Positions 29,533 to 57,487 of a DNA stretch of 64,000 nt are shown here, one piece after another (positions within the stretch are counted from its first letter, which is position 1; the number at the start of each line of letters is the position of its first letter). Under the pieces are notes generated by a model. The model saw nothing but the letters and a program-made list of their open reading frames with translations, did no database searches and was not told where the DNA came from. The stretch is taken from contig NZ_JAJRCG010000013.1 in assembly GCF_028679125.1 (NCBI RefSeq), positions 1 to 64,000 of the forward strand, given 5' to 3'. This DNA comes from Methanoregula sp. Its GTDB lineage: Archaea; Halobacteriota; Methanomicrobia; Methanomicrobiales; Methanospirillaceae. The position numbers and the translations under genes were made by a program.

Positions 29533-29538
29533 TACCCG

Positions 29539-29667: not shown

Positions 29668-29707
29668 TGAAACCTGAATCAATGATCCCTGTGTCGTCCT
29701 GTTACCA

Positions 29708-30997: not shown

Positions 30998-31050
30998 GCC
31001 AAATTACTCCCGTGATATTACTCCGTGACCTCGCTGGATGGCGATCACTC

Positions 31051-32342: not shown

Positions 32343-32391
32343 GGTAGTAGTAATAAGTTATGGACCGGCGTATTATAATACGTTCATTGTC

Positions 32392-32712: not shown

Positions 32713-32750
32713 TGTGATAACAACAGATCTAACAGGAAGGATTTTTCACC

Positions 32751-35772: not shown

Positions 35773-36853
35773 AGAGGAACTTGAGAAGAAGGCGATGATC
35801 TCGCTCCTCCATATTGCGAGCGCGTGGTACGACCAGATGAAGTCCGGCGAGATCCCCTCCATCTCCCTGCCGTCACGGACGAAATTCAATATCGAGTATG
35901 ACGATGCAAGCGAGGTCTGGAAGTACGGGGACAAGGAGAGCATGCGGAATGCTGCCTCGGCCAAGAGCGCAACGCACCTCTTAAAGATGGCCTACGTGAT
36001 CGGGTTCATCAAACAACAGTTGCGCGAGAACCGTTCGTCAACGCTGAGAGAGATGTATTACATCTCTGAGGGCTGGAAGCGTGCGAAGTTCGGCGCACAG
36101 GACGAGAGCAACTACCTTATCGAGGATCTTGAGATCCTCTCAGATGTCCCCCGCGAAGGGTTTCACCTCCATCCCGAGGAGAACGGCGCCTCTATCTACG
36201 GCCCGATGCGTATCCGCGAGGAGACCCGGCGCGGGATGAAGACGATCCACTGCCAGGACGATGTCGGGCTCGCGGGGTATACGATCCCGAACAGCGTGGA
36301 GAATATCGAGTTCGTGGACCATGATGCCAAGTTCGTCATTGCCATAGAGACCGGTGGTATGTATGACCGTCTGATTGAGAACGGCTTCGACGAGGAGTAC
36401 CACGCAATCCTCCTCCACCTCAAAGGCCAGCCGGCGCGTTCAACCCGGCGGATGCTCAACAAGATCAGCTCGAACTGGGATCTGCCGATCCTCGCATTCA
36501 CAGATGGCGACCCATGGTCCTACCGCATCTACGGCTCGGTTGCCTACGGGTCCATCAAGAGTGCCCACATGTCGGAACTGCTCGCAACCCCGAAAGCGCA
36601 GTTCCTCGGCCTGCGCCCGAGCGATATCCGGGATTATGACCTGCCCTCGGATACCCTGACCGAGAAGGATATCGAGGCGCTGCGATCCGAACTGACCGAT
36701 CCCCGGTTTGCCACCGATTTCTGGAGAAAGGAGATCAACCTGCAGCTCGAACTGGGACTCAAGTCGGAACAGCAGGCATTTGCCGCACACGGACTGGACT
36801 TTGTCACGAAGAAGTATTTGCCGACGCGGCTCTCCGAGATGGGGATCATCTGA
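35765..36853 (+). CDS. top6A: DNA topoisomerase VI subunit A (Spo11-like)
   Basis: The 362-residue subunit makes the double-strand cut. The winged-helix domain carries the catalytic Tyr in [11 protein letters not shown] (Y98-Y99; by comparison with Spo11 the second Tyr attacks DNA). The Toprim domain has [15 protein letters not shown] and [11 protein letters not shown], binding Mg2+. Length is normal. The start overlaps the end of top6B, so the two subunits are made in balance from one mRNA. The glycan cluster starts only 8 bp after its stop, and read-through from top6 is likely (inference). Confidence 0.95.
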
Positions 36854-36861
36854 ACGCTGGT

Positions 36862-38259
36862 ATGACTGTTGCTGTCTGTTACCCGGAGAAATATCCTGTT
36901 GAGGAGACATTTCAGCTCCTCAGGATACCGTGGGAATGGTATATTGAGGGCAACCGGTACGATGTTGTCATTGCCCGGAAGGCCGATGTCGCCGGATATG
37001 ACGGACCCGTTATCGATCTTACGGATAATGATTTTTTCCGGAAGATCGCGGACCTGCTGAACCGGGGTGAGATGCATCTCCACGAACCTTCCTGCGACAT
37101 CGAACTGGATCGCGTCCGGCAAGAGATAAAACGGTATATCGTTCTCGTGGAGATCCCCCCGGTACCCTGGGGGCACCCGTACATGGTTGCCCTCACCCAT
37201 GATGTGGATGTCACTTCAGTGAAGGAATGCCGGTTCACAACAGTGGGATATGCGGCATACCAGTGTTGCATACAGGGCAATGGCGCAGCCGGGCTCCGGC
37301 TGCTCGCTGCCCGGTGCGGGTTCGGGAAGGACCCGTGGATACTCTTCGACCGCTGGAAGGAACTGGAAGGATCGATGGGCGTCAGGTCAACGTTCTTCTT
37401 CGTGCCGCGCCCGGATGAGCCGGGACAGTGCGCCCACCCGTACCGCTCTGTCTGCTATCATGCGGATCCGGGGGTGATTGCATCTCTTCCCACAGAGGGG
37501 TGGGAAGCCGGCGTCCACGGCATCGACAACTGGATCGATGCCCGCCTCGGGGCGGAGGAGCGGGAAGTGCTGGGAGGAACGTCCGGTGGCAACCGGACGC
37601 ACTGGCTCCTCTTTGGCGAGAAGAGCTGGCAGGTGCTGGAGGCTGCCGGGTATTCCTGGGACTCGACCTTCGGGTACAACGACGACGCCGGTTTCCGTGC
37701 AGGCACGCTCCAGGTGTACAGGCCGGAACACGTGGACAATCTCCTTGAACTCCCGCTCCATATCCAGGATCTCGGGCTCTTCGGGGAGTTCTGCTGGGCC
37801 CTCGCGCGGGATGAGTGGGAGAAGACACCCTGCCTCCACCTGTCAGCACCCGCTGCACGCGATCACTGCGATCATATCTTCGGTTATGCCCGGAAGTACG
37901 GCGGCGCAGTCACCCTCCTGTGGCATTACGAGAACCTGGTCCCGCCCCGCGACTGGTCCGGGTTATACCGGGATCTCATTACCCGGGCAAAGTCTGATGG
38001 TGCATGGGTAACGACCGCAGGGAACGTTGTGGAATGGTTCAGGAAACGGCGGCAGATTCATATTACCTGCGTCCCTGGAAAGAACAAACTTACAATATCT
38101 GTTGAGGGCAATCTCTCATCAGATTTGTCACCCCCTCTGATGATGAGAATTCATATCCCCGGCAACCGAATGATATCTGTCAATGCCGATTATCTCCCGA
38201 GCGGAGAATATATCGACGTTAAACTGGACAAGATGTGTATAACGGTCTCATTTGTATGA
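36862..38259 (+). CDS. Polysaccharide deacetylase-family protein
   Basis: The 465-residue protein contains a NodB-like barrel between residues about 105 and 380. The metal-binding pair is HDVD (ALTHDVDVT), with GVHGIDN as the second metal or His motif and a late LLWHYEN. These enzymes deacetylate N-acetyl sugars. There is no signal peptide, so it may act on cytoplasmic intermediates. A 105-residue N-terminal extension with pocket-like sequence and a C-terminal beta domain (ITCVPGKNKLTISVEGN) flank the barrel. It overlaps the next gene by four bases (ATGA). It opens the glycan cluster. Confidence 0.8.
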   Translation: MTVAVCYPEKYPVEETFQLLRIPWEWYIEGNRYDVVIARKADVAGYDGPVIDLTDNDFFRKIADLLNRGEMHLHEPSCDIELDRVRQEIKRYIVLVEIPPVPWGHPYMVALTHDVDVTSVKECRFTTVGYAAYQCCIQGNGAAGLRLLAARCGFGKDPWILFDRWKELEGSMGVRSTFFFVPRPDEPGQCAHPYRSVCYHADPGVIASLPTEGWEAGVHGIDNWIDARLGAEEREVLGGTSGGNRTHWLLFGEKSWQVLEAAGYSWDSTFGYNDDAGFRAGTLQVYRPEHVDNLLELPLHIQDLGLFGEFCWALARDEWEKTPCLHLSAPAARDHCDHIFGYARKYGGAVTLLWHYENLVPPRDWSGLYRDLITRAKSDGAWVTTAGNVVEWFRKRRQIHITCVPGKNKLTISVEGNLSSDLSPPLMMRIHIPGNRMISVNADYLPSGEYIDVKLDKMCITVSFV

Positions 38260-38954
38260 TCCTCCAGAAAATTTTTCTTAAATTAAAAAGTCCTGAAATC
38301 GCGGATTCCTGGTTCATGCATACGTCTGTAGTTCAGCATGCGGTGAAAATCTGCCTGAAAATGTATAATTGCATTGCACCGAAACTTCCGCTCTGTCGCA
38401 GGGTAAATGGGGGATACCTTGGAACCGGCAACCAGATCCACCCAACCGCAATTATTGACTATGATCATGTCGTTATCGGGGATTTCTGTATCATTGAAAA
38501 AAACGTTGTGATAGACAAGAATTCCATTATCGGTAATTACGTTATTATACGGGAGGGCGCCGTCATAGGATCAGAAGGTTTTGAGTTTCGCAGGATAGCC
38601 GGAGAGATTGTACCGGTGGTGCACCTGGGGGGCATCATCATTGGTGACAATGCAGTCATTGGTCCCCGGGTTTGTATTGACAAAAGTGTCCTTGGGGAAT
38701 ATACCGAAGTTGGAGCATCAGCCGACATCCGCTCTGAAGTACAGATTGGGCATGGGATAAAAATCGGATGCTCTACCACGATCCTGGATGGGACCATGGT
38801 CGGAGGATATGCAAAGATCGGCAATCAGGTAACGATCGGCCGGCACTGCTCGATAGCTGATGGTCTCAACCTTGTGGATGGTGCAGTGATACCGGATTCC
38901 GCTATCATTACACGGGATATGAAAAACACTGCGGGAAATCGAGAGGATTCATGA
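38256..38954 (+). CDS. LpxD-like hexapeptide-repeat acyltransferase (1)
   Basis: The 232-residue protein carries left-handed beta-helix repeats from about residue 55 (HPTAIIDYDHVVIGDFCIIEKNVVIDKN and similar) with LpxD-like His segment VVHLGGIIIGDN. It should transfer an acyl group from a carrier to a sugar amine. The start ATG 38256 overlaps the previous stop (ATGA), so translation is coupled. DNA here is more AT-rich than the housekeeping part. It pairs with a second LpxD-like gene just downstream, and the ACP genes that follow supply a possible acyl donor. Confidence 0.8.
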   Translation: MILQKIFLKLKSPEIADSWFMHTSVVQHAVKICLKMYNCIAPKLPLCRRVNGGYLGTGNQIHPTAIIDYDHVVIGDFCIIEKNVVIDKNSIIGNYVIIREGAVIGSEGFEFRRIAGEIVPVVHLGGIIIGDNAVIGPRVCIDKSVLGEYTEVGASADIRSEVQIGHGIKIGCSTTILDGTMVGGYAKIGNQVTIGRHCSIADGLNLVDGAVIPDSAIITRDMKNTAGNREDS

Positions 38955-38993
38955 CTGGATATATGCCAAAAAAGCGATGGGAGGTGAATCCGG

Positions 38994-39872
38994 ATGAGAT
39001 TATCTGAATGCCTGTCTGAAAAAAATGCAATTGTCCGGGATGGCGATTTTTCATCGATAGGCACATTATTTTCCCACAACCCGCAACAGGTAGTTTATGC
39101 TGTTTCCGAACAGGACATACGAAAAATTGCCGGCAACCCGTCAGTTTCCTGTGTCATCACGACTGCGGCTCTCTCGCAGAAAGTCCCCTGCACGGTAGGT
39201 ATTGCTGCGGTCCGGGATCCTCGGCGCGAATTCCAGGCACTTCAGTCATTGATGGCCAGACATCCGGAATTTATTCTCCCTACCTTCATCAACAGGATCT
39301 CATCTTCCGTAAAAATTCACCCGAGTGCGCTGATTGCTCCGCATAGCGTTGTAATTGGCAGGGATGTGGTTATAGAAAAAAATGTGGTTGTCAACGAACA
39401 GACCATCATAGATGAGGGGTCCATTATCAGGTCAAACTGCATTATCGGTGATGCGGTGGCGCCATTTGGTAATACTCATGAGGGTTCCCTGATACAGCCG
39501 CCCGGCGGGGTACATCTTCACCGTGACGTTGACCTTCACGCAAATATCATCATTCGCCGTGCGGCATTCAAAGGATATACCGAGATCGGCGAACAGACAA
39601 AAATCGATAATCTGAGCACGATTGGGCAGGGCACTGTGATCGGAAAACACTGCCTGCTCTGTGGCGGGGTCACGCTGGGTGATTTCATTACCATCGGTGA
39701 TGATGGATGGATTGGTCCCAATGTGTATCTTTCTGACCAGATCGCCATCGGGAATCGTGTTTACATCACGATTGGTTCACGGGTCAGCAGGGATATTGCT
39801 GATGCGAAAGTCGTGAAAGATAATTTTGTCCTTGATCGAAACCGGTTCAAAGGAGTTATCCGGGGAATGTAA
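38994..39872 (+). CDS. LpxD-like hexapeptide-repeat acyltransferase (2)
   Basis: The 292-residue protein has an N-terminal ~95-residue domain like the uridine-binding domain of LpxD (KNAIVRDGDFSSIGTLFSHNP), then left-handed beta-helix repeats (VKIHPSALIAPHSVVIGRDVVIEKNVVV onward) with the HLHRDVDLHANIII segment. It is a probable N- or O-acyltransferase acting on a nucleotide sugar. A GGGAGGTG Shine-Dalgarno lies 7 bp before ATG 38994. The two adjacent LpxD-like genes suggest two acylation steps, although archaea lack lipid A. Confidence 0.82.
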   Translation: MRLSECLSEKNAIVRDGDFSSIGTLFSHNPQQVVYAVSEQDIRKIAGNPSVSCVITTAALSQKVPCTVGIAAVRDPRREFQALQSLMARHPEFILPTFINRISSSVKIHPSALIAPHSVVIGRDVVIEKNVVVNEQTIIDEGSIIRSNCIIGDAVAPFGNTHEGSLIQPPGGVHLHRDVDLHANIIIRRAAFKGYTEIGEQTKIDNLSTIGQGTVIGKHCLLCGGVTLGDFITIGDDGWIGPNVYLSDQIAIGNRVYITIGSRVSRDIADAKVVKDNFVLDRNRFKGVIRGM

Positions 39873-39944
39873 TATGGAGGATACTCCCACATACTCATGA
39901 GGATATCCCACCACGGTCAAAACAGAGATGTGAGAACTGGAACT

Positions 39945-40313
39945 ATGCAGAATATCGGTATTGGCACGGATATTGTCGAGATCAAACGGTTTGAAAATTT
40001 CGGTGATCCGCAATTCACCCCGTTTTTAACGAGGAATTATACGCAAAAAGAACGGGATTATTGCCTGTCAAAAGATGCTCCGGCCCCGCATCTTGCTGCA
40101 AGGTTTGCCGGGAAAGAAGCGGTGATAAAAGCCCTTTACAGTTTGCATATCACCCATATTTTTTATCCTGCTATTGAAATCCTTAACGACGATCGTGGTG
40201 TTCCATACGTCAGGATTAATACCGATCAAGCAGAAAAAATAAGTATTAAAATCAGTTTGTCACACAATTCTGATATGGCACTAGCTTTTTGCATAATAAT
40301 TCAGGAGATTTGA
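39945..40313 (+). CDS. acpS: Holo-[acyl-carrier-protein] synthase
   Basis: The 122-residue enzyme attaches 4'-phosphopantetheine from CoA to a Ser of an acyl carrier protein. The AcpS signature is IGTDIVEIKRF (with catalytic Asp), and RFAGKEAVIKAL is the second conserved box with the Glu that binds Mg2+. Start ATG 39945 gives the family N-terminus. It lies 2 bp before the ACP gene it should modify. AcpS and ACP are rare in archaea, which lack a standard fatty acid synthase, so this pair probably came by transfer with the cluster. Confidence 0.9.
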   Translation: MQNIGIGTDIVEIKRFENFGDPQFTPFLTRNYTQKERDYCLSKDAPAPHLAARFAGKEAVIKALYSLHITHIFYPAIEILNDDRGVPYVRINTDQAEKISIKISLSHNSDMALAFCIIIQEI

Positions 40314-40314
40314 C

Positions 40315-40554
40315 ATGGCACCATTTAACGAGGATACTATAAAAAATATTTTTTGTGAAGTGCTCGGTCTTCCTGCACAGAACGTTACGGATACCCTTGC
40401 CTACAATTCCTGCGAGCAGTGGGACTCCCTTAAACATCTCCAGATAGTCGCAATGTTTGAAGAGAGTTTCGGGATCGAGATTGATATGGATGATATCATC
40501 GCAATGGAAACGTACGGGAAAGTAAAGGAAATCCTGCACAAATATCTGACGTAA
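40315..40554 (+). CDS. Acyl carrier protein
   Basis: The 79-residue acidic helical protein has the phosphopantetheine site WDSLKHL (Ser38). Its helix layout is normal for ACP (N-terminal EDTIKNIFCEVLGL; third helix DDIIAMETYGKVKEIL). It should carry an acyl group as a thioester for the ligase and reductase genes that follow. It overlaps no gene but sits directly between acpS and the acyl-activating enzyme, so the set is a loading module. Confidence 0.92.
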   Translation: MAPFNEDTIKNIFCEVLGLPAQNVTDTLAYNSCEQWDSLKHLQIVAMFEESFGIEIDMDDIIAMETYGKVKEILHKYLT

Positions 40555-40561
40555 TCCGGTT

Positions 40562-42058
40562 ATGAATTTTGTTGAATATCTCTTTGAAAATGTTCGGGAT
40601 ACCGGTAAGGACTGCCTGGTATTCCGTGATGGCAGCCTTACCTATCAGGATCTCATCTCCAGGGTCAACAGCCTTTCAGTGCATCTCGCATCAACCATCG
40701 GCAGGGGAAACGAGTGCCTCATCCTTTCCGAAAACACACCATTTTTTGTCATTGCCTATCTTGCGATCATCCGGAGCGGAAATACCGCTCTCCTTGTCGA
40801 GACCCGGATATCTGATACCCAACTCGCCACGATTTATCGTGAATGCCGGATACGGACATCGTTTGTCCAGAAAAAATTCATAACAAAATCTGTCGGGAGG
40901 GACAATGTCATTACCGAGGACATACTCATAGAATTGTCTCCCGCAGATACATTCGCGACCAGTCCCGTGCAGGATGATGCAGTTGCTGTCGTGATCTTCA
41001 CCTCCGGCAGTACCGGGGCAAAGAAGGGTGTCATGCTGACGCATAAAAATTTATGTGCCAACACTACGTCGATTGTCCAGTACCTGGGCCTGACACCGGA
41101 TGACCGGATCTGTGCAACTCTCCCCTTCTTTTACTGTTATGGTGCATCACTGCTGCACACGCATCTCCGGGTCGGCGGGAGCATCCTGCTCTCGAAGAAT
41201 ATCTTCCTTGGCGGTGTCATCCGCGATATCAATACGTTCCGGTGCACGGGATTTGCCGGCGTTCCCAGCACGTACCAGATCCTGATCAACAAAACGCCGT
41301 TTCTCAAAGAACCCCTTCCGACCCTGCGGTACATGCAGCAAGCCGGGGGACAGCTGCCGAACAAATATATCCGGATGATTGCGGAAGCATTCCCGGAAAA
41401 AAAGTTCTTTGTGATGTACGGGGCTACCGAAGCAACCGCACGGATGTCCTATCTCCCGCCGGAGATGATCCTTACTAAACTGGGATCACTGGGCAGGGGA
41501 ATCCCGGGTGTCACTCTTGACGTGGTCAATGAAGCCGGCATACCGGTGCGACCCGGGGAGATCGGGGAGATTGTCGCTTCCGGTGACAATATCATGGAGG
41601 GATACTACGGCGATCCGGAGGGTACCGCTGAAGTGTTAAAAGACGGCCGGCTCCGGACCGGCGATCTCGCAACTGTTGATGACGACGGGTATATCTTCAT
41701 CCACGGGAGGGCCAAGAACATCATCAAGTCCGGGGGGTACCGTATCTCCCCGAACGAGATCGAGGATTTCATCTGTACCCTTGACGGTGTATCGGGGTGC
41801 GTTGTCCTGGGATTGCCCGATGAGACGATGGGTGAGGCGGTTACTGCTGTAGTCCAGCACACGGGAAAAGATCCTGCACCGGATTTCAGGGAGATGATCG
41901 TTACACGGTGCAGGCAGCACCTTCCTTCATATAAAGTCCCGTGCCGGCTCTTTTTTGTCCGGGAATTCCCACTCAATGCTTCTGATAAAGTGGATAAGCC
42001 GGCACTGACTATGACTATCCAGGAAGAACTCAAAAGTGATCCCAGGGCAGGTCAATGA
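40562..42058 (+). CDS. Acyl-activating AMP-dependent ligase (acyl-ACP or acyl-CoA synthetase)
   Basis: The 498-residue enzyme of the ANL superfamily activates a carboxylic acid as acyl-AMP and transfers it to a thiol. Motifs are FTSGSTGAKKGVMLTH (A3), YGATEATARMSYLPPE (A5), GDLATVDDDGYIFIHGRAKNIIKSGG (A7-A8) and the catalytic Lys region near the C-terminus (SDKVDKPAL). With an adjacent ACP, the thiol acceptor is probably ACP (inference). Its stop overlaps the next gene by 4 bp. Codon use is intermediate between the AT-rich cluster and the host. Confidence 0.88.
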   Translation: MNFVEYLFENVRDTGKDCLVFRDGSLTYQDLISRVNSLSVHLASTIGRGNECLILSENTPFFVIAYLAIIRSGNTALLVETRISDTQLATIYRECRIRTSFVQKKFITKSVGRDNVITEDILIELSPADTFATSPVQDDAVAVVIFTSGSTGAKKGVMLTHKNLCANTTSIVQYLGLTPDDRICATLPFFYCYGASLLHTHLRVGGSILLSKNIFLGGVIRDINTFRCTGFAGVPSTYQILINKTPFLKEPLPTLRYMQQAGGQLPNKYIRMIAEAFPEKKFFVMYGATEATARMSYLPPEMILTKLGSLGRGIPGVTLDVVNEAGIPVRPGEIGEIVASGDNIMEGYYGDPEGTAEVLKDGRLRTGDLATVDDDGYIFIHGRAKNIIKSGGYRISPNEIEDFICTLDGVSGCVVLGLPDETMGEAVTAVVQHTGKDPAPDFREMIVTRCRQHLPSYKVPCRLFFVREFPLNASDKVDKPALTMTIQEELKSDPRAGQ

Positions 42059-43182
42059 TGCCGTGTGCAGAAGACGATCGTTCTCATAGTTCCCGTCTGC
42101 GGGATATTCTCCTCTCAAAGGAGCCGTATTCAGAGAGCGATGCACACAAATGCGAAACGCTCATGCCTATCCTGCGGGAGCAACTCAAAGGGGCACGGGA
42201 GAACAACCCGCAGATTGACCATTTTCTCACCCGACAGGGGATTATTGTCGACGATCTCCAGAATCTCGAAGAAGTTCCCTTCATGCCGGTCCAGATGTTC
42301 AAGCGTTTCGATCTCCGGACCTGCCCGGAACAGGCAATTGCAAAGATCCTCCAGTCGAGCGGGACAACGGGCGGCACGCCGAGCAGGATCCCGCTTGACA
42401 AGTCCACGGCCATGAACCAGATCAGGGCGCTCAAGACGATCCTCGCGGATTACCTGGGGAAGAACCGGAAGATCTTCCTGGTCATCGATCATGAAGGGAT
42501 CAACAGCCCGTCCATGGCGTTCTCTGCCAGGACGGCCGGTGTTCGAGGGTTGAGCATCTATGCAAAGAAGACCTTTTACCTCTTAAAAGAAGAGAACGGG
42601 AAACTCGTCCTGAACCTGCCGGTGATCCGGGATGTCATGGAGAAGTATTCGCAGGACGATGTGTATGCGTTCGGGTTCACGTACATCATCTGGACCACCT
42701 TCTACGAGCAGGTGAAGAAGGAGGGTCTCCGCTTCTCTTTTAAGAATTTCACGCTCTTCCATGGCGGGGGCTGGAAAAAGATGCAGGATCTTGCGGTTTC
42801 CAAAGATGAGTTCTCCGCATCGATAGCAGCGATATTCGGAGCGCAGCCCGAAAACATCCTGGACTTTTACGGGATGGCGGAGCAGACCGGGATTATTTTC
42901 GTTGACTGCAAGGAAGGACACAAGCATGTGCCCGCGTTCTCCCAGGTGATTATCCGCGATCCGTATACGCTCCAGCCATGTCCCCCCGGCAAGCCCGGGC
43001 TGATTGAGGTGATGAGCGTCCTTGCCGACAGTTATTACGACCAGGCCGTCCTGACGGAAGATCTCGGCGTGCTTGTCGGGGTAGATGACTGCCCGTGCGG
43101 GCGCAAGGGCCGGTATTTCCGGTTTGTGTCCCGGGTCGAGAAAGCCGAAGTGCGCGGATGCGGCGATACGTTCCGGGAGTGA
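42055..43182 (+). CDS. LuxE-like acyl-protein synthetase
   Basis: The 375-residue protein belongs to the LuxE/acyl-protein ligase branch of the ANL superfamily. The nucleotide loop reads LQSSGTTGGTPSR, FHGGGWKKM and DFYGMAEQTG are further boxes. The C-terminus has a Cys pair DDCPCGRKGRYF, typical of this branch. In luminous bacteria LuxE activates fatty acid and passes it to LuxC for reduction to aldehyde. It is immediately upstream of a LuxC-like gene here, so the same two-step chemistry is probable. Two activating ligases in one operon suggest two acids or an acid-carrier relay. Confidence 0.87.
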   Translation: MMPCAEDDRSHSSRLRDILLSKEPYSESDAHKCETLMPILREQLKGARENNPQIDHFLTRQGIIVDDLQNLEEVPFMPVQMFKRFDLRTCPEQAIAKILQSSGTTGGTPSRIPLDKSTAMNQIRALKTILADYLGKNRKIFLVIDHEGINSPSMAFSARTAGVRGLSIYAKKTFYLLKEENGKLVLNLPVIRDVMEKYSQDDVYAFGFTYIIWTTFYEQVKKEGLRFSFKNFTLFHGGGWKKMQDLAVSKDEFSASIAAIFGAQPENILDFYGMAEQTGIIFVDCKEGHKHVPAFSQVIIRDPYTLQPCPPGKPGLIEVMSVLADSYYDQAVLTEDLGVLVGVDDCPCGRKGRYFRFVSRVEKAEVRGCGDTFRE

Positions 43183-43186
43183 GAGG

Positions 43187-44476
43187 ATGATCACCTGCCA
43201 CCTTGTTGATGGAAAGTTCGAAAAGCAATCCTGCACGGATTTTGACGGGATCGTCACCAGTATCAACCGGAACCGCGAGGTGCTTACAGCACTCCCGGTT
43301 GATGCCATCATCAAAATCCTTGACGGGCTGGGAAAACGCGTACTGAAAAATCCGGAGATCAATACCGTGCCCGGGGTCAGTTTCATCTCGCTCTGGCTGC
43401 GCCGGGAAAACCTGGATAAGATCTGCCAGATTAATTACTCGGATAAACGGTATATTGACGGGTTCGGTAAAACCGGGCAGAACTTCCTGATGATGGCCCA
43501 GCCACGGGGAATCGTCTGCCAGTGGATAGCAGCAAACATGCCAACGCTGGGATTCTTCTCGGTTGTCCAGGCGATCCTTTCCAAGAACGGGAGTATTGTC
43601 AAGATGCCGGAAGAGTATGTCCCGCTCATCTCCTCCATTCTCCGGGAACTGCCGGCTATCTCGGTTGAGTACGAGGGGAAGACGTATTCCGGTAAGACAA
43701 TCCTCGATGCCATTGCCCTTGTTTCCTTTGAGGGCAGGACGCAGGAGACAAGCGAGCAGTTCTCCCTTGCAGCAGACTGCCGCATCATCTTTGGGGGGAG
43801 CGAAGCGGTCCGCATCATCTCCCGCCTTCCCTGCCGCGACCACTGCGAGACCGTCATCTTCGGCCCGAAATACTCGTTTGCCGTATTCGACCGGGAGTTC
43901 ATCGCATCCGAAGGTTTCAGGAAATCGCTGGATCTCGTTGCAAAGGATGTTGCCGTTTTCAACCAGATGGCCTGTTCCTCCCCGCATGTGCTCTTCCTGG
44001 AAAAGAGCCGGTATTCCGTGGAGACGATCGCATCCTGGCTGAAAGAGTCATTTGAGAAGATGCCCCCCGTACTCCGACACCAGCCGATCTCATCCGGCAT
44101 GTCGGCAAGGATCATCAATGCCCGGGCTGAATACCAGCTCGCAGACGGGAGGAACTGTATTGCACCGCAGGATCTCGGCTGGACGATCCTCATGAACCAG
44201 GAGCCATGCCTGGAAGAGCCGGTCCAGGGCAAGTGTATCTTTCTCAAGGAGATCGGGTCAGCAGATGAGGTGATTCCCCTGGTCAACCACAAGATCCAGG
44301 CGATATCGATCGGGATCCTTGATCCCGTAAAGCGCGAATCGTTTGCCCGACAGGCGACCTACCGGGGGGCGGACCGGATCGTCATCCCCGGAACCATCCA
44401 CGACTTCACGCTCCCGTGGGATGGGATCATGACGTTGAACCGGCTGGTGCGATGGGTTATCCTGAAACATTCCTGA
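43187..44476 (+). CDS. LuxC-like acyl-CoA/ACP reductase
   Basis: The 429-residue protein matches LuxC, an aldehyde-dehydrogenase-fold enzyme that reduces an enzyme-bound acyl thioester with NADPH to a fatty aldehyde. The catalytic Cys lies in FNQMACSSPHVLF (C263). The NAD-fold and substrate regions are full length. The start ATG 43187 follows the LuxE stop by 4 bp with GAGAGG before it. LuxE and LuxC together make an acid reductase. No LuxA/LuxB luciferase is present, so light production is not the purpose. Confidence 0.88.
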   Translation: MITCHLVDGKFEKQSCTDFDGIVTSINRNREVLTALPVDAIIKILDGLGKRVLKNPEINTVPGVSFISLWLRRENLDKICQINYSDKRYIDGFGKTGQNFLMMAQPRGIVCQWIAANMPTLGFFSVVQAILSKNGSIVKMPEEYVPLISSILRELPAISVEYEGKTYSGKTILDAIALVSFEGRTQETSEQFSLAADCRIIFGGSEAVRIISRLPCRDHCETVIFGPKYSFAVFDREFIASEGFRKSLDLVAKDVAVFNQMACSSPHVLFLEKSRYSVETIASWLKESFEKMPPVLRHQPISSGMSARIINARAEYQLADGRNCIAPQDLGWTILMNQEPCLEEPVQGKCIFLKEIGSADEVIPLVNHKIQAISIGILDPVKRESFARQATYRGADRIVIPGTIHDFTLPWDGIMTLNRLVRWVILKHS

Positions 44477-44689
44477 AATGATGGTTTTCCGGATATCCCG
44501 GTCCATGAAGCAGGGTTCCGGAACAGCGGATCCTGTCTGGTGTTATGGATGGTATCAGTATATGGCTTAAGTACCCCTGCGTTAAATAGAATAACTATAC
44601 CAGAACCGATTTGATGGATGGAATATGCCTGAACGGTTATATTCTCATAAAAGAAATCGTGCGAACAGAGAACCTGCGACGTGATCATG

Positions 44690-45433
44690 ATGCTACTTCA
44701 GGGAAAAACAGCAGTCATCACAGGGTGCTCAAGGGGAATTGGGAAGAGCATTCTTGAAGCTTATGCAGAGAATGGGGCAAACATCTGGGCATGCAGCCGT
44801 ACATCTTCTGAGGAGTACCAGCATTATCTCCAGGAATTATCCGAGCGCCACTCAGTACAGATTACTCCCGTTTTCTTTGACATGACAGATTGTGAACAGG
44901 TGGCCCAGGCAATGAAGCAGATTCTTGCATCGCATGACCATCTGGATATCCTTGTGAACAATGCAGGTATTGTATCCAAGAATGCATTATTCCAACTCAC
45001 TCCCATGAAAACCATAAAGGAGGTTTTCGAAGTAAATTTCTTTGCACACCTGCTCATCACGCAATATATCCTCAAAGCAATGACCCGGCAGAACTCCGGC
45101 AGTATCATCAACATGGCCTCCATTGCGGGAATTGATGGCGAACCAGGTCAGCTGGAATACGTGTGCAGCAAAGCCGCCATCATCGGTGCCACCAGAAAAC
45201 TTTCACGGGAACTTTCATTTGCGCATATCCGGGTGAATGCTATTGCACCGGGAATAACCGATACGGATATGATTGGACAGATGTCTGAAGATGTATTGAA
45301 CCGGTTTATGCAGCAGTGCAGCCTGAAACGCCCGGCCCGGCCGGAAGAGATCGCCCGCGTTGCCGTGTTCCTGGGATCCGACATGGCATCCTATGTGAAC
45401 GGGCAGGTTATCCGGGTTGACGGTGGTTTGTAA
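44690..45433 (+). CDS. FabG-like short-chain dehydrogenase/reductase
   Basis: The 247-residue NAD(P)-dependent oxidoreductase has the TGCSRGIG nucleotide motif near its start, NNAG, a catalytic Ser in NMASIAG and YVCSK as the YxxxK pair. The C-terminal VNGQVIRVDGG is FabG-like. It may reduce a keto or aldehyde group made by the enzymes around it. It is separated from LuxC by about 210 bp that hold promoter-like sequence. It touches the transketolase gene with no gap beyond the stop. Starts at 44681 (GTG) and 44687 (ATG) are possible. Confidence 0.87.
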   Translation: MLLQGKTAVITGCSRGIGKSILEAYAENGANIWACSRTSSEEYQHYLQELSERHSVQITPVFFDMTDCEQVAQAMKQILASHDHLDILVNNAGIVSKNALFQLTPMKTIKEVFEVNFFAHLLITQYILKAMTRQNSGSIINMASIAGIDGEPGQLEYVCSKAAIIGATRKLSRELSFAHIRVNAIAPGITDTDMIGQMSEDVLNRFMQQCSLKRPARPEEIARVAVFLGSDMASYVNGQVIRVDGGL

Positions 45434-46285
45434 ATGCCGGTGGACAGATCAAACGATGATGAAATTCACGCTCTCCAGGACAGGGCAAAACGGATGCGGG
45501 AGACTGCGCTGCACATGGCATTCTCTGCGGGTTCCAATGGTGCGCATCTGGGAGGTGGTCTCTCCCTGATCGAGATTATGGCAACACTGTATGGAGGCGT
45601 GTTGCATATCGATCCAAAAAATCCAGAATGGGATGATCGTGACCGGTTCATTCTCAGTAAAGGGCATGGGGTTCTGGCGTATTATCCGGCGCTTGTCGAA
45701 GCGGGTTTTTTCCCATCAGAAGATCTGAAAAAATTTGAAGTAAACGGGAATTACCTGCCGGGTCACCCAATCATGAACATGAAAAAAGGGATTGAGTGTT
45801 CCAGTGGCAGCCTCGGCATGGGGCTCTCATTCGGTGTTGGCGTGGCACTCACCGGCAAAATGCGGAATAAATCCTATCACACGTATGTCGTGCTCGGTGA
45901 TGGGGAATGCGATGAAGGTACCGTCTGGGAAGCGGCCATGTCAGCATCGCATTTCCATTTGAATAACCTCATCGCTATTGTAGACCAGAACCAGTTACAG
46001 TATGACGGTGTATGTTCTGAAATTATGGACATGGGAGATTTCAAAGCTAAATGGGAGAGTTTCGGGTGGGATGCAACTGAGATCGATGGCCATGATATCA
46101 GAGCGCTGCTTCACGCGTTCAGGTGCTGCCTGCAAACCCCGGTATTAAAACCTCATGTTATCATCGCAAGGACCGTTAAGGGGAAAGGTGTCTCGTTCAT
46201 GGAGAATAAAAAAGAATGGCACCATGGAAGCCTGACACAGAAACAGTATGAGTCGGCGATCGCAGAGATCCGGGGTGTGCAGTGA
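45434..46285 (+). CDS. Transketolase-like protein, N-terminal (TPP-binding) half
   Basis: The 283-residue protein is the first half of a split transketolase. It has SKGHGVLAYY, SSGSLGMGLSFGVG and the TPP/Mg signature GDGECDEGTVWEAAMSASHFHLNNLIAIVDQN. It transfers a two-carbon ketol group together with the following subunit. It ends where the second half starts, with a 1-bp overlap. It is preceded directly by the SDR gene. In many archaea this pair is a pentose-making transketolase, but its place inside an aldehyde-forming cluster suggests a dedicated glycan role (inference). Confidence 0.88.
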   Translation: MPVDRSNDDEIHALQDRAKRMRETALHMAFSAGSNGAHLGGGLSLIEIMATLYGGVLHIDPKNPEWDDRDRFILSKGHGVLAYYPALVEAGFFPSEDLKKFEVNGNYLPGHPIMNMKKGIECSSGSLGMGLSFGVGVALTGKMRNKSYHTYVVLGDGECDEGTVWEAAMSASHFHLNNLIAIVDQNQLQYDGVCSEIMDMGDFKAKWESFGWDATEIDGHDIRALLHAFRCCLQTPVLKPHVIIARTVKGKGVSFMENKKEWHHGSLTQKQYESAIAEIRGVQ

Positions 46286-47268
46286 TGGCTCCCCTGACTC
46301 CGCTGAATGCCCGGATCTATTCCAAGCTGGGCCAGAGAGGATCGTTCTCTCTTGCGATTGAAGAGGTTGCAGCGCAGGATGAAGAACTGGTGGTGATGAC
46401 CGCCGACCTGACAACACTGACGGGGCTGACACGGTTCAAGGAGAAGTATCCCGGCAAGTTCCTGAACATTGGTATTGCGGAACAGAATATGATCTGCCTT
46501 GCTGCGGGGATGGCAAAAGAGGGAAAGAATGTATTCGTGACAACCTATGCCAATTTCCTTGCCATGAGAGCCTACGAGCAGATCCGGATCCAGCTCGGGT
46601 ATATGCAGTTTCCCGTCAGGGTCATTGGTACCGGTAGCGGTCTTGCCATGGGGATGTCCGGGAATACTCATTATGGGATTGAGGATATTGCTCTCATGCG
46701 GGCCGTTCCCGGTCTTATGGTGGTCTCTCCGGCCGATGGAGCGGAAACCACAAAGGTCATCCATGAGGCAGCACACTATCCCGGGCCCGTGTATGTGCGC
46801 CTGAGCGGTGTGATGAATACCCCTATCGTCTATACTGAAGAGTACCCGTTTGCATTTGGGAAAGCGGTACGACTGCGGGAGGGAGATGATGTGGCGGTTA
46901 TTGCAACCGGTACCATGGTGCATGAATCGATCCGTGCCGCTGAATTGTTAAAGGAGAAAGGCATCTCTGCATCCGTTCTTAACATGCATACGATAAAACC
47001 CCTTGATACTGCGGCAATCCGGAATGCCTGCACCCGGTCAAACCTCATTGTGACGGTTGAGGAACATTCGATCATTGGAGGTCTGGGAAGTGCTGTGGCG
47101 GAATGTATCAGTGAAACTGCGGGTAGCCCCCGGCTTTTACGCATCGGAATTCCGGATGCTTTCCAAAAAGTCGGGGATTACCGGTATCTCCTTGAGCAGA
47201 ATGGGCTTTCCGCTCCCCAGATTGCAGAGAAAATTTCCATTACCTTTGGTCCGGGCTTTCGGTCATGA
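46285..47268 (+). CDS. Transketolase-like protein, C-terminal half
   Basis: The 327-residue subunit has the pyrimidine-binding domain (NIGIAEQNMICLAAGMA, where Glu activates TPP) and the C-terminal domain (VAVIATGTMVHESIRAAELLKEKGI, TVEEHSIIGGLGSAVAE). It works as a complex with the preceding protein. ATG 46285 overlaps the previous stop, so stoichiometry is set by translational coupling. Beyond it lies a 100-bp gap and then glycosyltransferases. Confidence 0.88.
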   Translation: MAPLTPLNARIYSKLGQRGSFSLAIEEVAAQDEELVVMTADLTTLTGLTRFKEKYPGKFLNIGIAEQNMICLAAGMAKEGKNVFVTTYANFLAMRAYEQIRIQLGYMQFPVRVIGTGSGLAMGMSGNTHYGIEDIALMRAVPGLMVVSPADGAETTKVIHEAAHYPGPVYVRLSGVMNTPIVYTEEYPFAFGKAVRLREGDDVAVIATGTMVHESIRAAELLKEKGISASVLNMHTIKPLDTAAIRNACTRSNLIVTVEEHSIIGGLGSAVAECISETAGSPRLLRIGIPDAFQKVGDYRYLLEQNGLSAPQIAEKISITFGPGFRS

Positions 47269-47368
47269 TGACAGAAACTGAGTATACAGTAGTATTCCCT
47301 TTTTGGAATCCTCTCGAAAAGAGCCGGAAAATGTACTATGAATCCGGTGATGGGTCCGGGAAAAACAG

Positions 47369-48643
47369 ATGATACGTTGGGGCGTTGCGAGAATGACAGA
47401 CCAGGATCCGGCTGCAGGTTCATTGGCAGGGAGTGAAAAGGTACTGGGCGAAAGAACGCTTCTTGTCATCTCGCCGGATTTTCCTGCCCAGGATAACCGG
47501 TACATGGGATCGCTCTTTGTAAAGAACCAGCTTGAATCCCTGAAACATCATTTTAAACACGTTATCGTGATTGTCCCGGTACTCTTCAGTGGAGGAATAC
47601 TGCCAAATGACCGGTACTGCCACGATTACTCCTATGACAATATATCTGTCTATTATCCCCGGTGTTTTTTCTTTCCCCGAAGTGTATCCCTTCCCCTCAT
47701 AAAAAATTCCCAAAAATTCTCCTTTGATACCCGATTGTCTGCAGTTCAGAACCTGATCGAAAAGAAGCACCTTCAGTTTGATCTGATTCATGCGCATTTT
47801 ACATGGCCATCAACATATATTGCGACCCGGTTGAAGGAACAGTACCATATTCCCGTAGCAGCCACCATCCATGAAGATTCCGGCTGGCTGAAGGAAGAGA
47901 TCCAAGACGCTAATCAGAGTCTGGTGGACTCCTGGAGGAATGCGGATGCACTTATCCGTGTGAACCGACAGGAAATACCCTTGTTGAAACAGTACAATGA
48001 TGCAGTGTTTTTTGTCCCGAACGGATTCTCACCCCTGTTTAAGCCCATGGATACACGGACATGCCGTTTACAACTCCAGGTATCCCTGGAAAAACCTGTA
48101 CTGTTCAGTGTCGGAGATCTTATTCCCCGGAAAGGTTTTTCGTACCTGATCGATGCGTTGACGATTGTCAGAAGGCAGTATCCGAATATCATCTGTTACA
48201 TTGGTGGCCATGGGCCGGAGGAGAAAAATCTCCGGCGGCAGATCCGGGATAACCACCTGGAAGATAGGGTTATTCTCCTGGGATCCATCCCGGAAGATAT
48301 ACTCCCCCTGTGGATGAATTGTGCAGATCTCTATGCCCTTCCGAGTCTCCAGGAAAGTTTCGGTATCGTGCAGATCGAAGCGCTTGCCTGCGGGAAACCG
48401 GTAATTGCAGCCCGGAATGCCGGCAGCAGGGAGATTGTGGTCTCTGATGATATCGGCGTATTATGTGACCCTCATGATTCGGATTCCCTGGCATGTGCAC
48501 TTGTTCAGGGACTGAGTCGGAAATGGGATCATCAGAAAATTCTTGCATACTCGGAAAAGTACTCCTGGGAAATGGTTGTTAAGTCAATACTCCCCATTTA
48601 TATACGGATTATAAGGAACAACCGGACGCATGACCCGCCATAA
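47369..48643 (+). CDS. GT4-family glycosyltransferase
   Basis: The 424-residue GT-B enzyme transfers sugars from a nucleotide donor. The N-terminal acceptor domain (LLVISPDFPAQDNRYMGSLF) and the C-terminal donor domain (FSVGDLIPRKGFSYLIDAL; SLQESFGIVQIEALACGKPVIA, the EX7E-type site) are both complete. An in-frame ATG at 47393 lies a little closer to the domain and is an alternative start. The gene overlaps the next glycosyltransferase by 14 bp. There is no signal peptide; it works on the inner membrane face. Confidence 0.85.
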   Translation: MIRWGVARMTDQDPAAGSLAGSEKVLGERTLLVISPDFPAQDNRYMGSLFVKNQLESLKHHFKHVIVIVPVLFSGGILPNDRYCHDYSYDNISVYYPRCFFFPRSVSLPLIKNSQKFSFDTRLSAVQNLIEKKHLQFDLIHAHFTWPSTYIATRLKEQYHIPVAATIHEDSGWLKEEIQDANQSLVDSWRNADALIRVNRQEIPLLKQYNDAVFFVPNGFSPLFKPMDTRTCRLQLQVSLEKPVLFSVGDLIPRKGFSYLIDALTIVRRQYPNIICYIGGHGPEEKNLRRQIRDNHLEDRVILLGSIPEDILPLWMNCADLYALPSLQESFGIVQIEALACGKPVIAARNAGSREIVVSDDIGVLCDPHDSDSLACALVQGLSRKWDHQKILAYSEKYSWEMVVKSILPIYIRIIRNNRTHDPP

Positions 48644-49529
48644 CCCTCTCGTATCAGTTGTAACGCCATCGTTCAACAAAGGACCCTTCATCAAAGAGAC
48701 AATCCAGAGTATCCAGGACCAGAGTTATTCTCATATTGAGCATATTGTCATTGACGGGGGCTCAACAGATGAGACGCTCGCAATCCTGAAAAAGTATGAA
48801 GGGCAGATCTCCTGGGTCTCGGAGCCGGATCGGGGTCAGTCGCACGCGATTAACAAGGGGTGGGAGAGGGCTCGGGGAGAGATCATCGCGTACCTGAATG
48901 CCGATGACACCTATACCCGCGATGCTGTTGAAACTGCGGTTACTTACCTGAATGAACATCCCGATGTTGGCATGGTCTACGGAGATGGCATCATGACCGA
49001 TGAGAGGGGTCGGTTTCTTGAAGAGGGACGCGCCGGTGAATTCAGCCTGAGAGAACTCGTGTATTGTCGTGATGCCATCCTCCAACCCGCGGTATTCCTC
49101 CGGAAATCTGTGTATGACCGGATAGGCGGTATTGATGAGAGCCTGCATCTTGCCATGGACCTCGACTACTGGATCCGTGTCGGGCTTCTCTTTCAGGTTG
49201 TTCATATCCCTCACATCCTTGCTACCGCAAAAGTATACGGAGATGCAAAGAGCGTTGCACTGATGCACAGGTACGTGAGTGATTACGAGCATATTCTGGA
49301 GAAAGTGTTTGCAGATTCGTACCTGCCCCCTGAACTGGCTGCCGAAAAAAATGCTGTTTATAATTACGTGTATGTCAAAGGGGGACTCGATTTTATCCAC
49401 CTGGGTAGGAGACGGGAAGGGATGCGGTACCTCGGGAAGGCATTCCGGATGAACCCGTTCCGGTGTGCGGGGAATGTGCTCGCCCTTCTCGGGCGATATG
49501 GTTACCGGAATATTATCGGACGTCGATAA
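48630..49529 (+). CDS. GT2-family glycosyltransferase
   Basis: The 299-residue GT-A enzyme has the opening VSVVTPSFNKGPFIKETIQSI, IDGGSTDETLAIL and the DxD-type metal motif NADDTY. A late AMDLDYWIRVGLLF box and a C-terminal helical tail follow. It transfers a sugar from a nucleotide donor to a growing glycan. The gene overlaps the GT4 gene by 14 bp, so the two transferases are made together. Convergent with the minus-strand GT4 gene downstream. Confidence 0.85.
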   Translation: MTRHNPLVSVVTPSFNKGPFIKETIQSIQDQSYSHIEHIVIDGGSTDETLAILKKYEGQISWVSEPDRGQSHAINKGWERARGEIIAYLNADDTYTRDAVETAVTYLNEHPDVGMVYGDGIMTDERGRFLEEGRAGEFSLRELVYCRDAILQPAVFLRKSVYDRIGGIDESLHLAMDLDYWIRVGLLFQVVHIPHILATAKVYGDAKSVALMHRYVSDYEHILEKVFADSYLPPELAAEKNAVYNYVYVKGGLDFIHLGRRREGMRYLGKAFRMNPFRCAGNVLALLGRYGYRNIIGRR

Positions 49530-49585
49530 AAATCCAGATAACCCCGAAATATTTGATAAAAAATCGTTGGTTACCCAGGAATTTT

Positions 49586-50749
49586 TTAATGGTAGTGTTC
49601 TAAAGCGGTCTCGTACACTTTTTTTGTCATGGCTGCGGTTTTTTCCCAGGAGAATAATTTCGCTCGTTCGCGACTCCGGGCGATCAGATTTGCCCTTATG
49701 CTCTCATCGGCGATGATCCGTTCAACGCTGTCTGCCAGTGATGCACCGTCAACAGGATCGAAGTAGAGCGCTGCATCGCCCCCGACTTCCGGAAGCGAGC
49801 TGGTATTGCTCAGGAGTGCCGGGCAGCCACAAGAAAATGCTTCCAGAACAGGAATACCGAATCCTTCATACAATGAGGGAAAAATAAACGCATATGCGTT
49901 ATTATACAACTGCACCAGGGTGGCATCATCTGCTGGAAAATTGTGCACCCGTGAGACCAAGCCTATTTCGCGTATCAGTTTTTTTTCTGAATCCGTGAAT
50001 TTTCCCCCGCCGGCACACACGAGGTGCATATTGACTTCCTTTTTCAGTACCGGGGAGAGTGCCTTGATCATGAATGTGAAATTTTTGTAACTGAATCTGT
50101 TCCCGCAAAACAGAAGATATTTTTCAGGGATATTCTTTTCCCCGCCAAGCCGGGGGAGTGGTGGATCTTTTTCCGGATTGAATGAACTTGCAAGGTGGAT
50201 TACCTGTATCCTATCCGGATCCATCCCCAGAAACTTCACAATATCTTTTTTGGTATTATCAGAAATTGCAATAATCTGCGTTGCATCTTCAACAAGCCTT
50301 TTTTTCCACGCAGGTGCAGGATCACGTCGGTCAAAATTGTCCGGATATGTTTCCTGAATCATATCATAAATTGTCACAATGTACGGACGCTTTTTAAGAT
50401 ATTTCAGAAAATATGGCTGATAATAAGTCGGGTGAAAAACGTCAAAATCCTGTGCCTGTAACTGCTTTATCGCCTCATGCTGGTTGTTGAAGATGTGATT
50501 CATGAAATTTACATGAATTTTTCTCTGGATATCCATGAAAAAACGGGAGTCCGAGAGATTGTCTCTATGTGTCCAGTACCGGTTCAGTTGAGGCATCTGA
50601 GCCAGATGATCATTTTGCGAATAGCGCAATGTGAGACGAAAATTGATCATCCTGTCATGAGAATATTGATTCATCAGTTCGCAAAAATACCGGGAGATCC
50701 CTCCAAAGTACTGGATGGTAAATATCTGATGGTCATAGAGAATTTTCAT
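49586..50749 (-). CDS. GT4-family glycosyltransferase (Rv-like WbaZ type)
   Basis: The 387-residue GT-B enzyme has the N-terminal FGGISRYFCELMNQY glycine loop and the C-terminal box SLYEGFGIPVLEAFSCGCPALLSNTSSLPEVGGDAALYF, a standard EX7E-type donor site. It probably uses GDP-mannose or a UDP-hexose (inference from family). GAGGGA lies just before the ATG. It is transcribed against the previous genes and diverges from the next glycosyltransferase over about 500 bp of gene-free DNA. Confidence 0.85.
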   Translation of the reverse strand: MKILYDHQIFTIQYFGGISRYFCELMNQYSHDRMINFRLTLRYSQNDHLAQMPQLNRYWTHRDNLSDSRFFMDIQRKIHVNFMNHIFNNQHEAIKQLQAQDFDVFHPTYYQPYFLKYLKKRPYIVTIYDMIQETYPDNFDRRDPAPAWKKRLVEDATQIIAISDNTKKDIVKFLGMDPDRIQVIHLASSFNPEKDPPLPRLGGEKNIPEKYLLFCGNRFSYKNFTFMIKALSPVLKKEVNMHLVCAGGGKFTDSEKKLIREIGLVSRVHNFPADDATLVQLYNNAYAFIFPSLYEGFGIPVLEAFSCGCPALLSNTSSLPEVGGDAALYFDPVDGASLADSVERIIADESIRANLIARSRERAKLFSWEKTAAMTKKVYETALEHYH

Positions 50750-51256
50750 GTTTCCCTCATATATTATCTCGATGCAGATTTACAGGATTCCAACCTTGAA
50801 AAATTATCTGACTGTCAGTCAGATTATACTTACTCTCACTTCCATGTATCGGGATTCGTGATGTTTTCATCATTATTGGAAAACTTCCGTGACCGGCAGC
50901 TTTTTTCCCCCTTCCAATTCATGCTTTTTATGAAGTTAATTCTCAATCTTAATTCCCCTGAGATAATAACGATTCAAATAATTATGAATGGTGACCGTTT
51001 TGTTTCAGAAATATGCCCTATCGATATCCGTGGGAAATTTTTTTATCATTGTGATCATCAGGCCATGAAACCGGGAATGATTCTTTAATTCACAGATTTA
51101 TTTCAGTTTAAATGAAGATCTCACGCAGGTAGTGTACCGAATCCCGGCAATAGGGAAATTGATATAAATCCTGGTATCGGTATGCATTATCTAAAAGCAG
51201 AACATATCAATAATTATAGATTTATCCGGATAGGAAATCTGGTTTTTCATGGGGAA
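50750..51256. other. 507-bp divergent intergenic region
   Basis: AT-rich DNA between two divergent glycosyltransferase genes. It holds a TATA box (gatataaat, 51161-51169) for the plus-strand gene and a perfect 8-bp inverted repeat at 50806-50824. A frame across it (50477-51088) overlaps the minus-strand gene and is not credible. Confidence 0.55.
50806..50824. promoter_or_regulatory. Perfect inverted repeat, possible operator
   Basis: ATCTGACT-GTC-AGTCAGAT has 8-bp arms and lies 57 bp upstream of the minus-strand glycosyltransferase start. The position suits a regulator-binding site, but no regulator is identified. Confidence 0.4.
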
Positions 51257-52504: not shown

Positions 52505-52586
52505 TAAGAATGTATTGAGACTGGTTTGGATACGCTTGCATTTGTGATGTTTTCATTGAAAAATGGTAATAAAATTCCTTCAGGTA

Positions 52587-54059: not shown

Positions 54060-54256
54060 GGCTGTTCCATCCCGGTGATCATGGACATATCCCGCAATGC
54101 ACCGGATTTGGAGTACTGAGTGGAATCACGTGCACACTGGTGCCAGGGTTTGAGGGCATGGGAACAATCGTTCATTCAGGTATTCTTACTGGTTATCTCA
54201 ATTAACACTAAATTATGTTGCCGTTATCTTTAGTGAGAAAAATCCCGTTATGAAAA

Positions 54257-56169: not shown

Positions 56170-56197
56170 GAAATCCCCTTCGATCGCGGGGCTCCGT

Positions 56198-57469: not shown

Positions 57470-57487
57470 GGAATATTGCTCCTCTCT

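Follow-up and report, generated by a model that had tools for sequence, protein, structure and literature searches.

A split transketolase beside LuxE/LuxC genes in a Methanoregula glycan island: a possible modular route to acylated surface sugars

The DNA analysed here is the first 64,000 nucleotides (1..64,000, forward strand; hereafter the window) of contig NZ_JAJRCG010000013.1 from Methanoregula sp., assembly GCF_028679125.1, a genome of 2.67 Mb in 33 contigs that is 94% complete. The organism belongs to the order Methanomicrobiales within the phylum Halobacteriota, and counts given below for the order and the phylum refer to these. Our subject is a cassette at positions 39945-47268 in which eight genes, all on the plus strand and each above its Pfam cut-off, encode a holo-ACP synthase (AcpS), an acyl carrier protein (ACP), an ANL-family ligase, LuxE-like and LuxC-like proteins, a short-chain dehydrogenase/reductase (SDR), and the N- and C-terminal halves (TKN and TKC) of a transketolase (TK). 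Open reading frames and Pfam matches bear out the original prediction that these eight genes share one strand and lie between LpxD-like acyltransferases and glycosyltransferases. On balance, we favor the view that the product of the cassette is a small, hydroxylated acyl chain, which its enzymes also place on a surface glycan. The genes are as follows.

39945..40313, plus strand: AcpS, holo-ACP synthase (PF01648; passes TIGR00516 at 63.7 bits against a cut-off of 59.8)
40315..40554, plus strand: dedicated ACP (PF00550; Ser38 in the motif WDSLKH)
40562..42058, plus strand: ANL adenylating ligase (PF00501/PF13193)
42055..43182, plus strand: LuxE-like acyl-protein synthetase (PF04443, E 2.3e-60; matches LuxE of 7xc6)
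43187..44476, plus strand: LuxC-like acyl thioester reductase (PF05893, E 2.5e-60; matches LuxC of 7xc6)
44681..45433, plus strand: SDR of the TK-associated type (PF13561/PF00106)
45434..46285, plus strand: TK N-terminal half, binding thiamine diphosphate (ThDP) (PF00456, E 1.9e-46; His26, His66, His100 and His261 kept)
46282..47268, plus strand: TK C-terminal half with an altered substrate pocket (PF02779/PF02780; Glu411 kept; His461, Asp469 and Arg520 replaced)

The genes are separated by gaps of -4 to +7 bases, save for 204 bases between LuxC and the SDR, where a search for an SDR remnant gave a chance-level match only (E 6.1). The LuxC reading frame was listed from 43085, within luxE, but the in-frame ATG at 43187 is the likelier start (429 aa), since it sits directly past the luxE stop, by 4 bases, and the corresponding frames in genomes G323 and G350 (G numbers denote genomes, L numbers the loci or stretches compared) encode 430 and 432 residues. 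Functional residues are conserved throughout: ACP Ser38 in 71/71 aligned rows, the ANL motif TSGST in 86-87 of 88 rows per position, SDR Ser147, Tyr160 and Lys164 in 62/62, LuxE Cys369 in 94/94, and LuxC Cys297 (in the numbering of the longer frame) in 90/90. We take the two cysteines to be the counterparts of the acyl-carrying LuxE Cys364 and LuxC Cys286. The window proteins covered by the Pfam scans, all of them from position 28411 onward, include no luciferase.

The same set of genes recurs well beyond this genome. An alignment of 12 LuxE sequences retrieved at least 580 relatives in genome_contigs, the best 80 loci were kept, and both TK halves occur in 22 of these, with a nearest LuxE-TKN start distance of 1.8-6.5 kb; roles in these loci were assigned by profiles built from our own seeds, which biases the counts toward similar genes. 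Among the 48 loci of at least 19 kb in this set, LuxE and ANL are present in all 48, ACP and LuxC in 47 each, an SDR in 31 of them, and the pair of TK halves in 18. The 22 TK loci include Lachnospiraceae, Oscillospiraceae, Bacteroidales, Kosakonia, Pantoea, Lysinibacillus, Emcibacteraceae and Gastranaerophilales, and a TK cassette also resides on a Rhizobium plasmid. In seven of the 22 the recognized genes run ACP-SDR-TKN-TKC-ANL-LuxE-LuxC, although other genes may intervene. Within the order, TK halves adjoin AcpS, ANL, LuxE and LuxC, together with an ACP, in six genomes: our own, G364, G237, G163, G323 and G350. The set recurs elsewhere in the order and in different phyla as well, so the grouping is more than chance. 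The original prediction had asked for conservation of the gene order, and the TK and Lux genes indeed stand together in five further genomes of the order and in several bacterial phyla; its proposal that the genes form one pathway gains from this recurrence, whereas the keto sugar that it named as the product is not supported.

That product was to be a long-chain or branched free ketose, nucleotide-activated and polymerized into the glycan by glycosyltransferases. Such a role would suit the ketols that transketolases make, and glycosyltransferase and nucleotide-sugar genes adjoin the cassette. It would leave AcpS, ACP and ANL without a role, however, though these accompany the Lux genes with or without TK: the 47 and 48 occurrences of ACP and ANL among the 48 longer loci point to an acyl chain instead. 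Moreover, the cassette contains no kinase or nucleotidyltransferase, and the nucleotide-sugar genes in the scanned part of the window match the models for GalU, UDP-glucose dehydrogenase, Gmd and GDP-fucose synthase. We consider a free ketose unlikely.

Some variants of the Lux genes were recorded in passing. Two LuxE-LuxC pairs plus TK halves occur in each of three loci (L073, L097 and L133) from Oscillospiraceae and Lachnospiraceae. Ten Clostridium loci carry ACP-ANL-LuxE-LuxC without TK (L056, L057, L059, L060, L062, L063, L065, L067, L069 and L070) and have no SDR close by, that of L067 being about 9 kb off. A distant LuxE-LuxC pair (24% and 23% identity) lies at 5941-8399 of L147, an unverified phage record from human faeces.

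Could the TK halves simply be a housekeeping enzyme of the pentose phosphate pathway that landed in the cluster by chance? The only Transketolase_N match in the genome does lie within the cassette, and the original prediction had held that in such a case the pair would be the housekeeping enzyme. The pair is indeed the only TK found in its genome, yet 184/199 genomes of the order have no TKN match, including 20 listed from the same genus, among them G056, which is 99% complete. Matches are confined to 15/199 genomes (10/132 among the most complete). Together with the loss of canonical pocket residues described below and the recurrence of the gene set across phyla, this order-wide absence makes a housekeeping role scarcely credible, and we rejected it. 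TK looks accessory in the order, given those 15 matches and given that G056 has the Lux cassette with no TKN match. Splitting of the enzyme by itself means little. Split transketolases are not rare in the order, and when we inspected the neighborhoods of 14 of the 15 TKN-positive genomes (all but G436), the TKs outside the six Lux-linked cassettes were either split, with no Lux genes in the stretches seen, or single-chain (G168 and G148), with other glycan-type genes around them. The split TKs of L044 and L047 adjoin PfkB/HldE-like, SIS-domain, transaldolase and radical SAM genes, which suggests separate sugar-phosphate routes for enzymes of that type. LuxC is also sparsely distributed, with a match in 9/294 genomes of the phylum; the AcpS/ANL/LuxE/LuxC cassette is present in six of these, while the other three, when compared with the window proteins, show LuxE-LuxC alone.

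The substrate pocket of the Lux-linked transketolases is altered. In the E. coli numbering used here, His461, Arg520, Arg358 and Ser385 hold the phosphate end of transketolase substrates, Asp469 reads a sugar hydroxyl, and recognition of the donor's C1 hydroxyl falls to His100 and His473. Our survey covered 30 Lux-linked C-halves and 31 N-halves; the N-half of L043, which has no C-half on its contig, was excluded. His461, Asp469 and Arg520 are each present in 0/30 C-halves, while the catalytic Glu411 is present in 30/30, His473 in 28/30, Arg358 in 23/30 and Ser385 in 12/30. Among N-halves, His100 is kept in 25/31 and Asp155 in 26/31. The window enzyme keeps both Glu411 and the cofactor residue Asp155, and its halves, scored apart, reach 278.7 and 255.8 bits against an NCBIfam transketolase equivalog whose cut-off of 488 applies to the whole protein. 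As controls, 5/7 split TKs without Lux genes keep all three residues that the Lux-linked enzymes have lost. From this pattern we infer that the acceptor of the Lux-linked enzymes is unphosphorylated; the donor is perhaps unphosphorylated as well, hydroxypyruvate being one example.

A second line of evidence comes from the way in which TK and SDR are exchanged. The acyltransferases and cassette proteins of G056 are 51-85% identical to those of the window, while its SDR is just 39% identical. In FastTree trees of the Lux core (LuxE, LuxC and ANL), the window pairs with G364 (0.996) and next with G056; in the tree of TKN plus TKC it pairs with G323 and G350 (1.000), whose Lux cores are closer to those of the TK-less G252 and G158. 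Since the two trees pair the window with different genomes, they indicate that the TK module moves independently of the Lux core. The SDR follows the TK. In a tree of 53 SDRs encoded near LuxE (10 rows were dropped beforehand for length or distance), the window SDR falls among the TK-linked ones, and the TK-locus label requires 4 changes against a shuffled mean of 17.5, with 0/500 shuffles as low by a quick method, a statistic that is weakened by near copies and by locus-wide labelling. The archaeal genomes G056, G252 and G158 carry AcpS-ACP-ANL-LuxE-LuxC-SDR with no adjoining TK, and their SDRs form one supported group (99) with those of Methanomassiliicoccus and one Bacteroidetes. TK-less cassettes carry an SDR from another clade, or else an iron alcohol dehydrogenase, in place of the TK-type SDR. 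The likeliest reading is a single pathway in which the step acting on the aldehyde is exchangeable, and the joint exchange of TK and SDR against an unchanged Lux core strengthens the earlier suggestion that the LuxE/LuxC aldehyde is the likely TK acceptor. The iron alcohol dehydrogenase gene is seen in the Asgard archaeon Candidatus Sigynarchaeum (L055, 8399-9493), where ACP-ANL-Fe-ADH-LuxE-LuxC follow a weak hexapeptide-transferase match, the arrangement of the Vibrio cholerae O1 tetronate genes.

The same exchange bears on another use of the TK halves. In some antibiotic pathways, TK-like halves make a glycolyl-thioester on an ACP, and a similar enzyme here might draw the glycolyl unit from a ketose while LuxE and LuxC act on something else. 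An ACP does adjoin the halves, and a pocket that has lost its sugar-phosphate residues while keeping His473 in 28/30 cases would fit. The joint swapping of TK and SDR type against a constant background of ACP, ANL and LuxE/LuxC argues the other way, and we regard this as quite improbable.

Returning to the acyl side chain that we favor, the following pathway can be sketched from family memberships and conserved residues. AcpS would arm the dedicated ACP. LuxE, through its conserved cysteine, would activate a carboxyl group that LuxC, through its own, would reduce to an aldehyde. TKN and TKC would together form one ThDP enzyme adding a two-carbon ketol unit to that aldehyde, and the SDR would reduce the resulting ketone. 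ANL would load the other carboxyl end onto ACP, either before or after the reduction, and an LpxD-like enzyme would then transfer the chain carried by ACP onto a sugar, at either an amino or a hydroxyl group. That LuxE/LuxC would be needed as well as ANL/ACP suggests a dicarboxylic acid, while an acyl chain held on ACP is suggested because ACP and ANL accompany LuxE/LuxC with or without TK, and because acyltransferases adjoin in many loci, though not in all. In TK-less cassettes the aldehyde would be reduced directly, by the other type of SDR or by the iron alcohol dehydrogenase, as happens in tetronate-type side chains, so that TK and its own SDR would constitute an exchangeable module lengthening the chain by two carbons. 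A dicarboxylate precursor such as malate is a guess only; were it malate, the calculated residue would be dihydroxybutanoyl, 102.032 Da, without TK, and 162.053 Da with TK, the mass of a hexose residue. More tentatively, and as a possibility rather than an expectation, a TK acting on an unphosphorylated, perhaps ACP-tethered semialdehyde from LuxE/LuxC would provide a modular two-carbon route to polyhydroxyacyl sugar decorations in archaea and several bacterial phyla.

The chain is unlikely to be a long one, since this 94% complete genome gave no PP-binding match besides the cassette ACP. Long chains are nonetheless the essence of a liposugar route, in which the glycan would receive long-chain fatty acyl groups that had first been activated and partly reduced. 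The names of the families are those of fatty-acid enzymes, and accessible portions of the literature on Enterobacteriaceae, Dickeya and Aeromonas suggest such a route for related genes (PMC4875605, PMC7575072, PMC7874193). In the present genome, however, the single PP-binding match leaves no second ACP for fatty acid synthesis evident, TK would have no obvious place, and LuxE (89.1 bits versus 550) and LuxC (73.2 versus 750) fall far under the cut-offs of the bioluminescence equivalogs. We judge a liposugar improbable here.

Around the cassette lie genes that fit a glycan setting, as had been predicted; those immediately flanking it are:

36862..38259, plus strand: polysaccharide-deacetylase-like protein (weak profile match; first island gene after top6B-top6A)
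38235..38954, plus strand: LpxD-like hexapeptide acyltransferase 1 (PF00132; LpxD models below cut-off)
38994..39872, plus strand: LpxD-like hexapeptide acyltransferase 2 (PF00132; LpxD models below cut-off)
47369..48643, plus strand: GT4 glycosyltransferase (PF00534/PF13692)
48630..49529, plus strand: GT2 glycosyltransferase (PF00535)

Downstream are also a polysaccharide-transporter-like protein and matches to models of GalU, UDP-glucose dehydrogenase, Gmd and GDP-fucose synthase. The first LpxD-like protein aligns with LpxD structures, its His173 in QIGHGIKIG facing the QIAHNVHIG motif of LpxD. The deacetylase-like protein had no match in Pfam and NCBIfam scans, while a profile of five of its relatives matches the deacetylase 3rxz over part of its length (E 1.2e-5); relatives with 63% identity adjoin the cassette in G056 and G364, and, speculatively, it could free an amino group for acylation. 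The island starts right after top6B-top6A (33943-36853), and the same pair precedes glycan-type genes in G056, G252 and G346 (L011, L012 and L046), the island in G346 being a different one, so the site downstream of top6B-top6A looks like an insertion hotspot.

Elsewhere, hexapeptide transferases of LpxD/LpxA/PglD or acetyltransferase type are found, as in the window, in the loci of G056, G364, G252, Rhizobium, Pantoea and Deinococcus. An amino-sugar setting is indicated by DegT aminotransferases in the loci of G237, L079, L085 and L106 and by NeuB in L106 and L122; a cytidylyltransferase and a GNAT protein occur in L106, and a PglD-type transferase in L110; neighbors were scanned in six of the 22 TK loci (L079, L085, L091, L106, L110 and L122), and the two L091 proteins scanned gave no match. 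The alphaproteobacterial TK cassettes of L053 and L122 add a FabA/FabZ-like dehydratase, a GMC oxidoreductase and a small protein of no assigned family.

Several observations weigh against the pathway as drawn. The acceptor sugar is one: the scanned window proteins include no aminotransferase, and the genome's one strong DegT, a PseC-like protein, is encoded on a different contig. The acyltransferase is another. The second LpxD-like protein has no histidine at the corresponding motif, the hexapeptide-acyltransferase profile matches just 9/22 TK loci of the best-80 set, and it matched nothing in the stretches from G163 and G350; elsewhere, a different transferase, for instance the GNAT of L106, may replace the hexapeptide enzyme. 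The pairing of TK with SDR is imperfect as well, in that no SDR was found between LuxC and TK in G323 (L039, 11701-12224) and just a truncated one in G350 (L040, 10847-11404), and the SDR tree has three TK-less SDRs among the TK-linked, one TK-locus SDR outside them, and some long branches. The altered pocket is typical of Lux-linked TKs, not exclusive to them, for those residues are likewise missing from 2/7 split TKs that have no Lux neighbors and from the two single-chain TKs examined. Lastly, in L060 the two neighbors scanned, a sigma-54 activator and a lactate/malate dehydrogenase, adjoin the core in place of glycan genes, and the ACP-ANL-LuxE-LuxC core may thus serve a non-glycan role.

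If the proposed pathway is correct, it would account for a group of genes to which fatty acid biosynthesis has been ascribed in flagellin islands since 2015 (PMC4522980), and ThDP enzymes would gain a role in the making of acyl groups. An archaeon would be using a dedicated ACP to decorate its surface sugars, in a domain that, to our knowledge, generally lacks bacterial-type fatty acid synthesis. And were the precursor malate, a TK-type decoration would weigh the same as a hexose, and mass spectrometry would miss it.

Similar gene sets in bacteria are already in print, and the comparisons that follow rest on the accessible parts of those papers. In Dickeya zeae, flagellar loci with the same set have been read as fatty-acid and sugar genes that possibly modify the flagellin glycan (PMC7575072, PMC4522980, PMC6206727; see also PMC8864124 and PMC8386352), in a cluster that includes vioA and an O-acetyltransferase (PMC7575072). 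Like the window, the Dickeya locus combines LuxC, LuxE, ANL, two TK genes, a FabG-like SDR and ACP in a glycan-modification setting, with a maltose O-acetyltransferase-type enzyme in the same set; by description, it differs in being a bacterial flagellin locus with two SDRs and no acpS named. For enterobacterial islands with ACP, LuxE, LuxC, CaiC and FabG, the published reading is a liposugar route (PMC4875605). Group II of the Aeromonas flagellar glycosylation islands shares ACP, SDR, ANL, LuxE and LuxC with the window core but has no TK listed, and the published deletions removed a larger block and fgi-1 instead of single cassette genes (PMC7874193). The Aeromonas AH-3 glycan carries a 102-Da moiety without an assigned identity (PMC7874193), for which our pathway, if true, would offer a possible identity, although the calculated 102.032 Da fits in nominal mass only and this, too, counts against us. 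These accounts, as far as they were accessible, contain no tested function for the cassette. Our literature search, little of it directed at archaea, did not turn up the archaeal cassette, the dependence of SDR type on TK presence, or the pocket loss; nor did it contradict the original statement that no archaeal system of this kind had been described, though bacterial counterparts clearly have been.

At the level of individual enzymes, the split TK of Carboxydothermus hydrogenoformans (6yaj) is the nearest solved relative of the window C-half and likewise consists of separate subunits, but it keeps the canonical pocket His and Asp in the alignment, both of which the window enzyme has lost. Similarly, the LuxC-LuxE complex of luminous bacteria (7xc6) shares Pfam families and conserved cysteines with the window proteins, which are nevertheless distant from it, below the curated equivalog cut-offs. 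A further analogy is with tetronate, 2,4-dihydroxybutanoate, whose genes in Vibrio cholerae O1 encode an ACP, a ligase, an iron alcohol dehydrogenase, the LuxE/LuxC-like RfbN and a transferase, with no TK known among them. As described in the accessible text, these five genes, VC0248-VC0252, lie beside an amino-sugar pathway and serve to place the hydroxyacyl group on perosamine, and WbeL has a putative ATP-binding domain (PMC3441752). In Vibrio vulnificus, a table lists a NeuC homologue, a sugar acetyltransferase, an ACP and RfbN, the last as "acyl protein synthase/acyl-CoA reductase", under nearby gene numbers (PMC11264103). In Flavobacterium psychrophilum, the predicted role of a PglD homologue is to accept 3,5-dihydroxyhexanoyl from a dedicated ACP (PMC6519341), and the logic of that hand-over from ACP to sugar is common to the pathway proposed here, insofar as the available text describes it. 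Taken as a list of features, a dedicated ACP, a ligase, LuxE/LuxC, an acyltransferase and a glycan locus are what the window shares with the tetronate-type pathway; TK halves and a TK-type SDR in place of direct aldehyde reduction are what distinguish it. Because of that TK and its SDR, we regard the Methanoregula cassette as a variant of the tetronate-type pathway, and not as a plain member of it.

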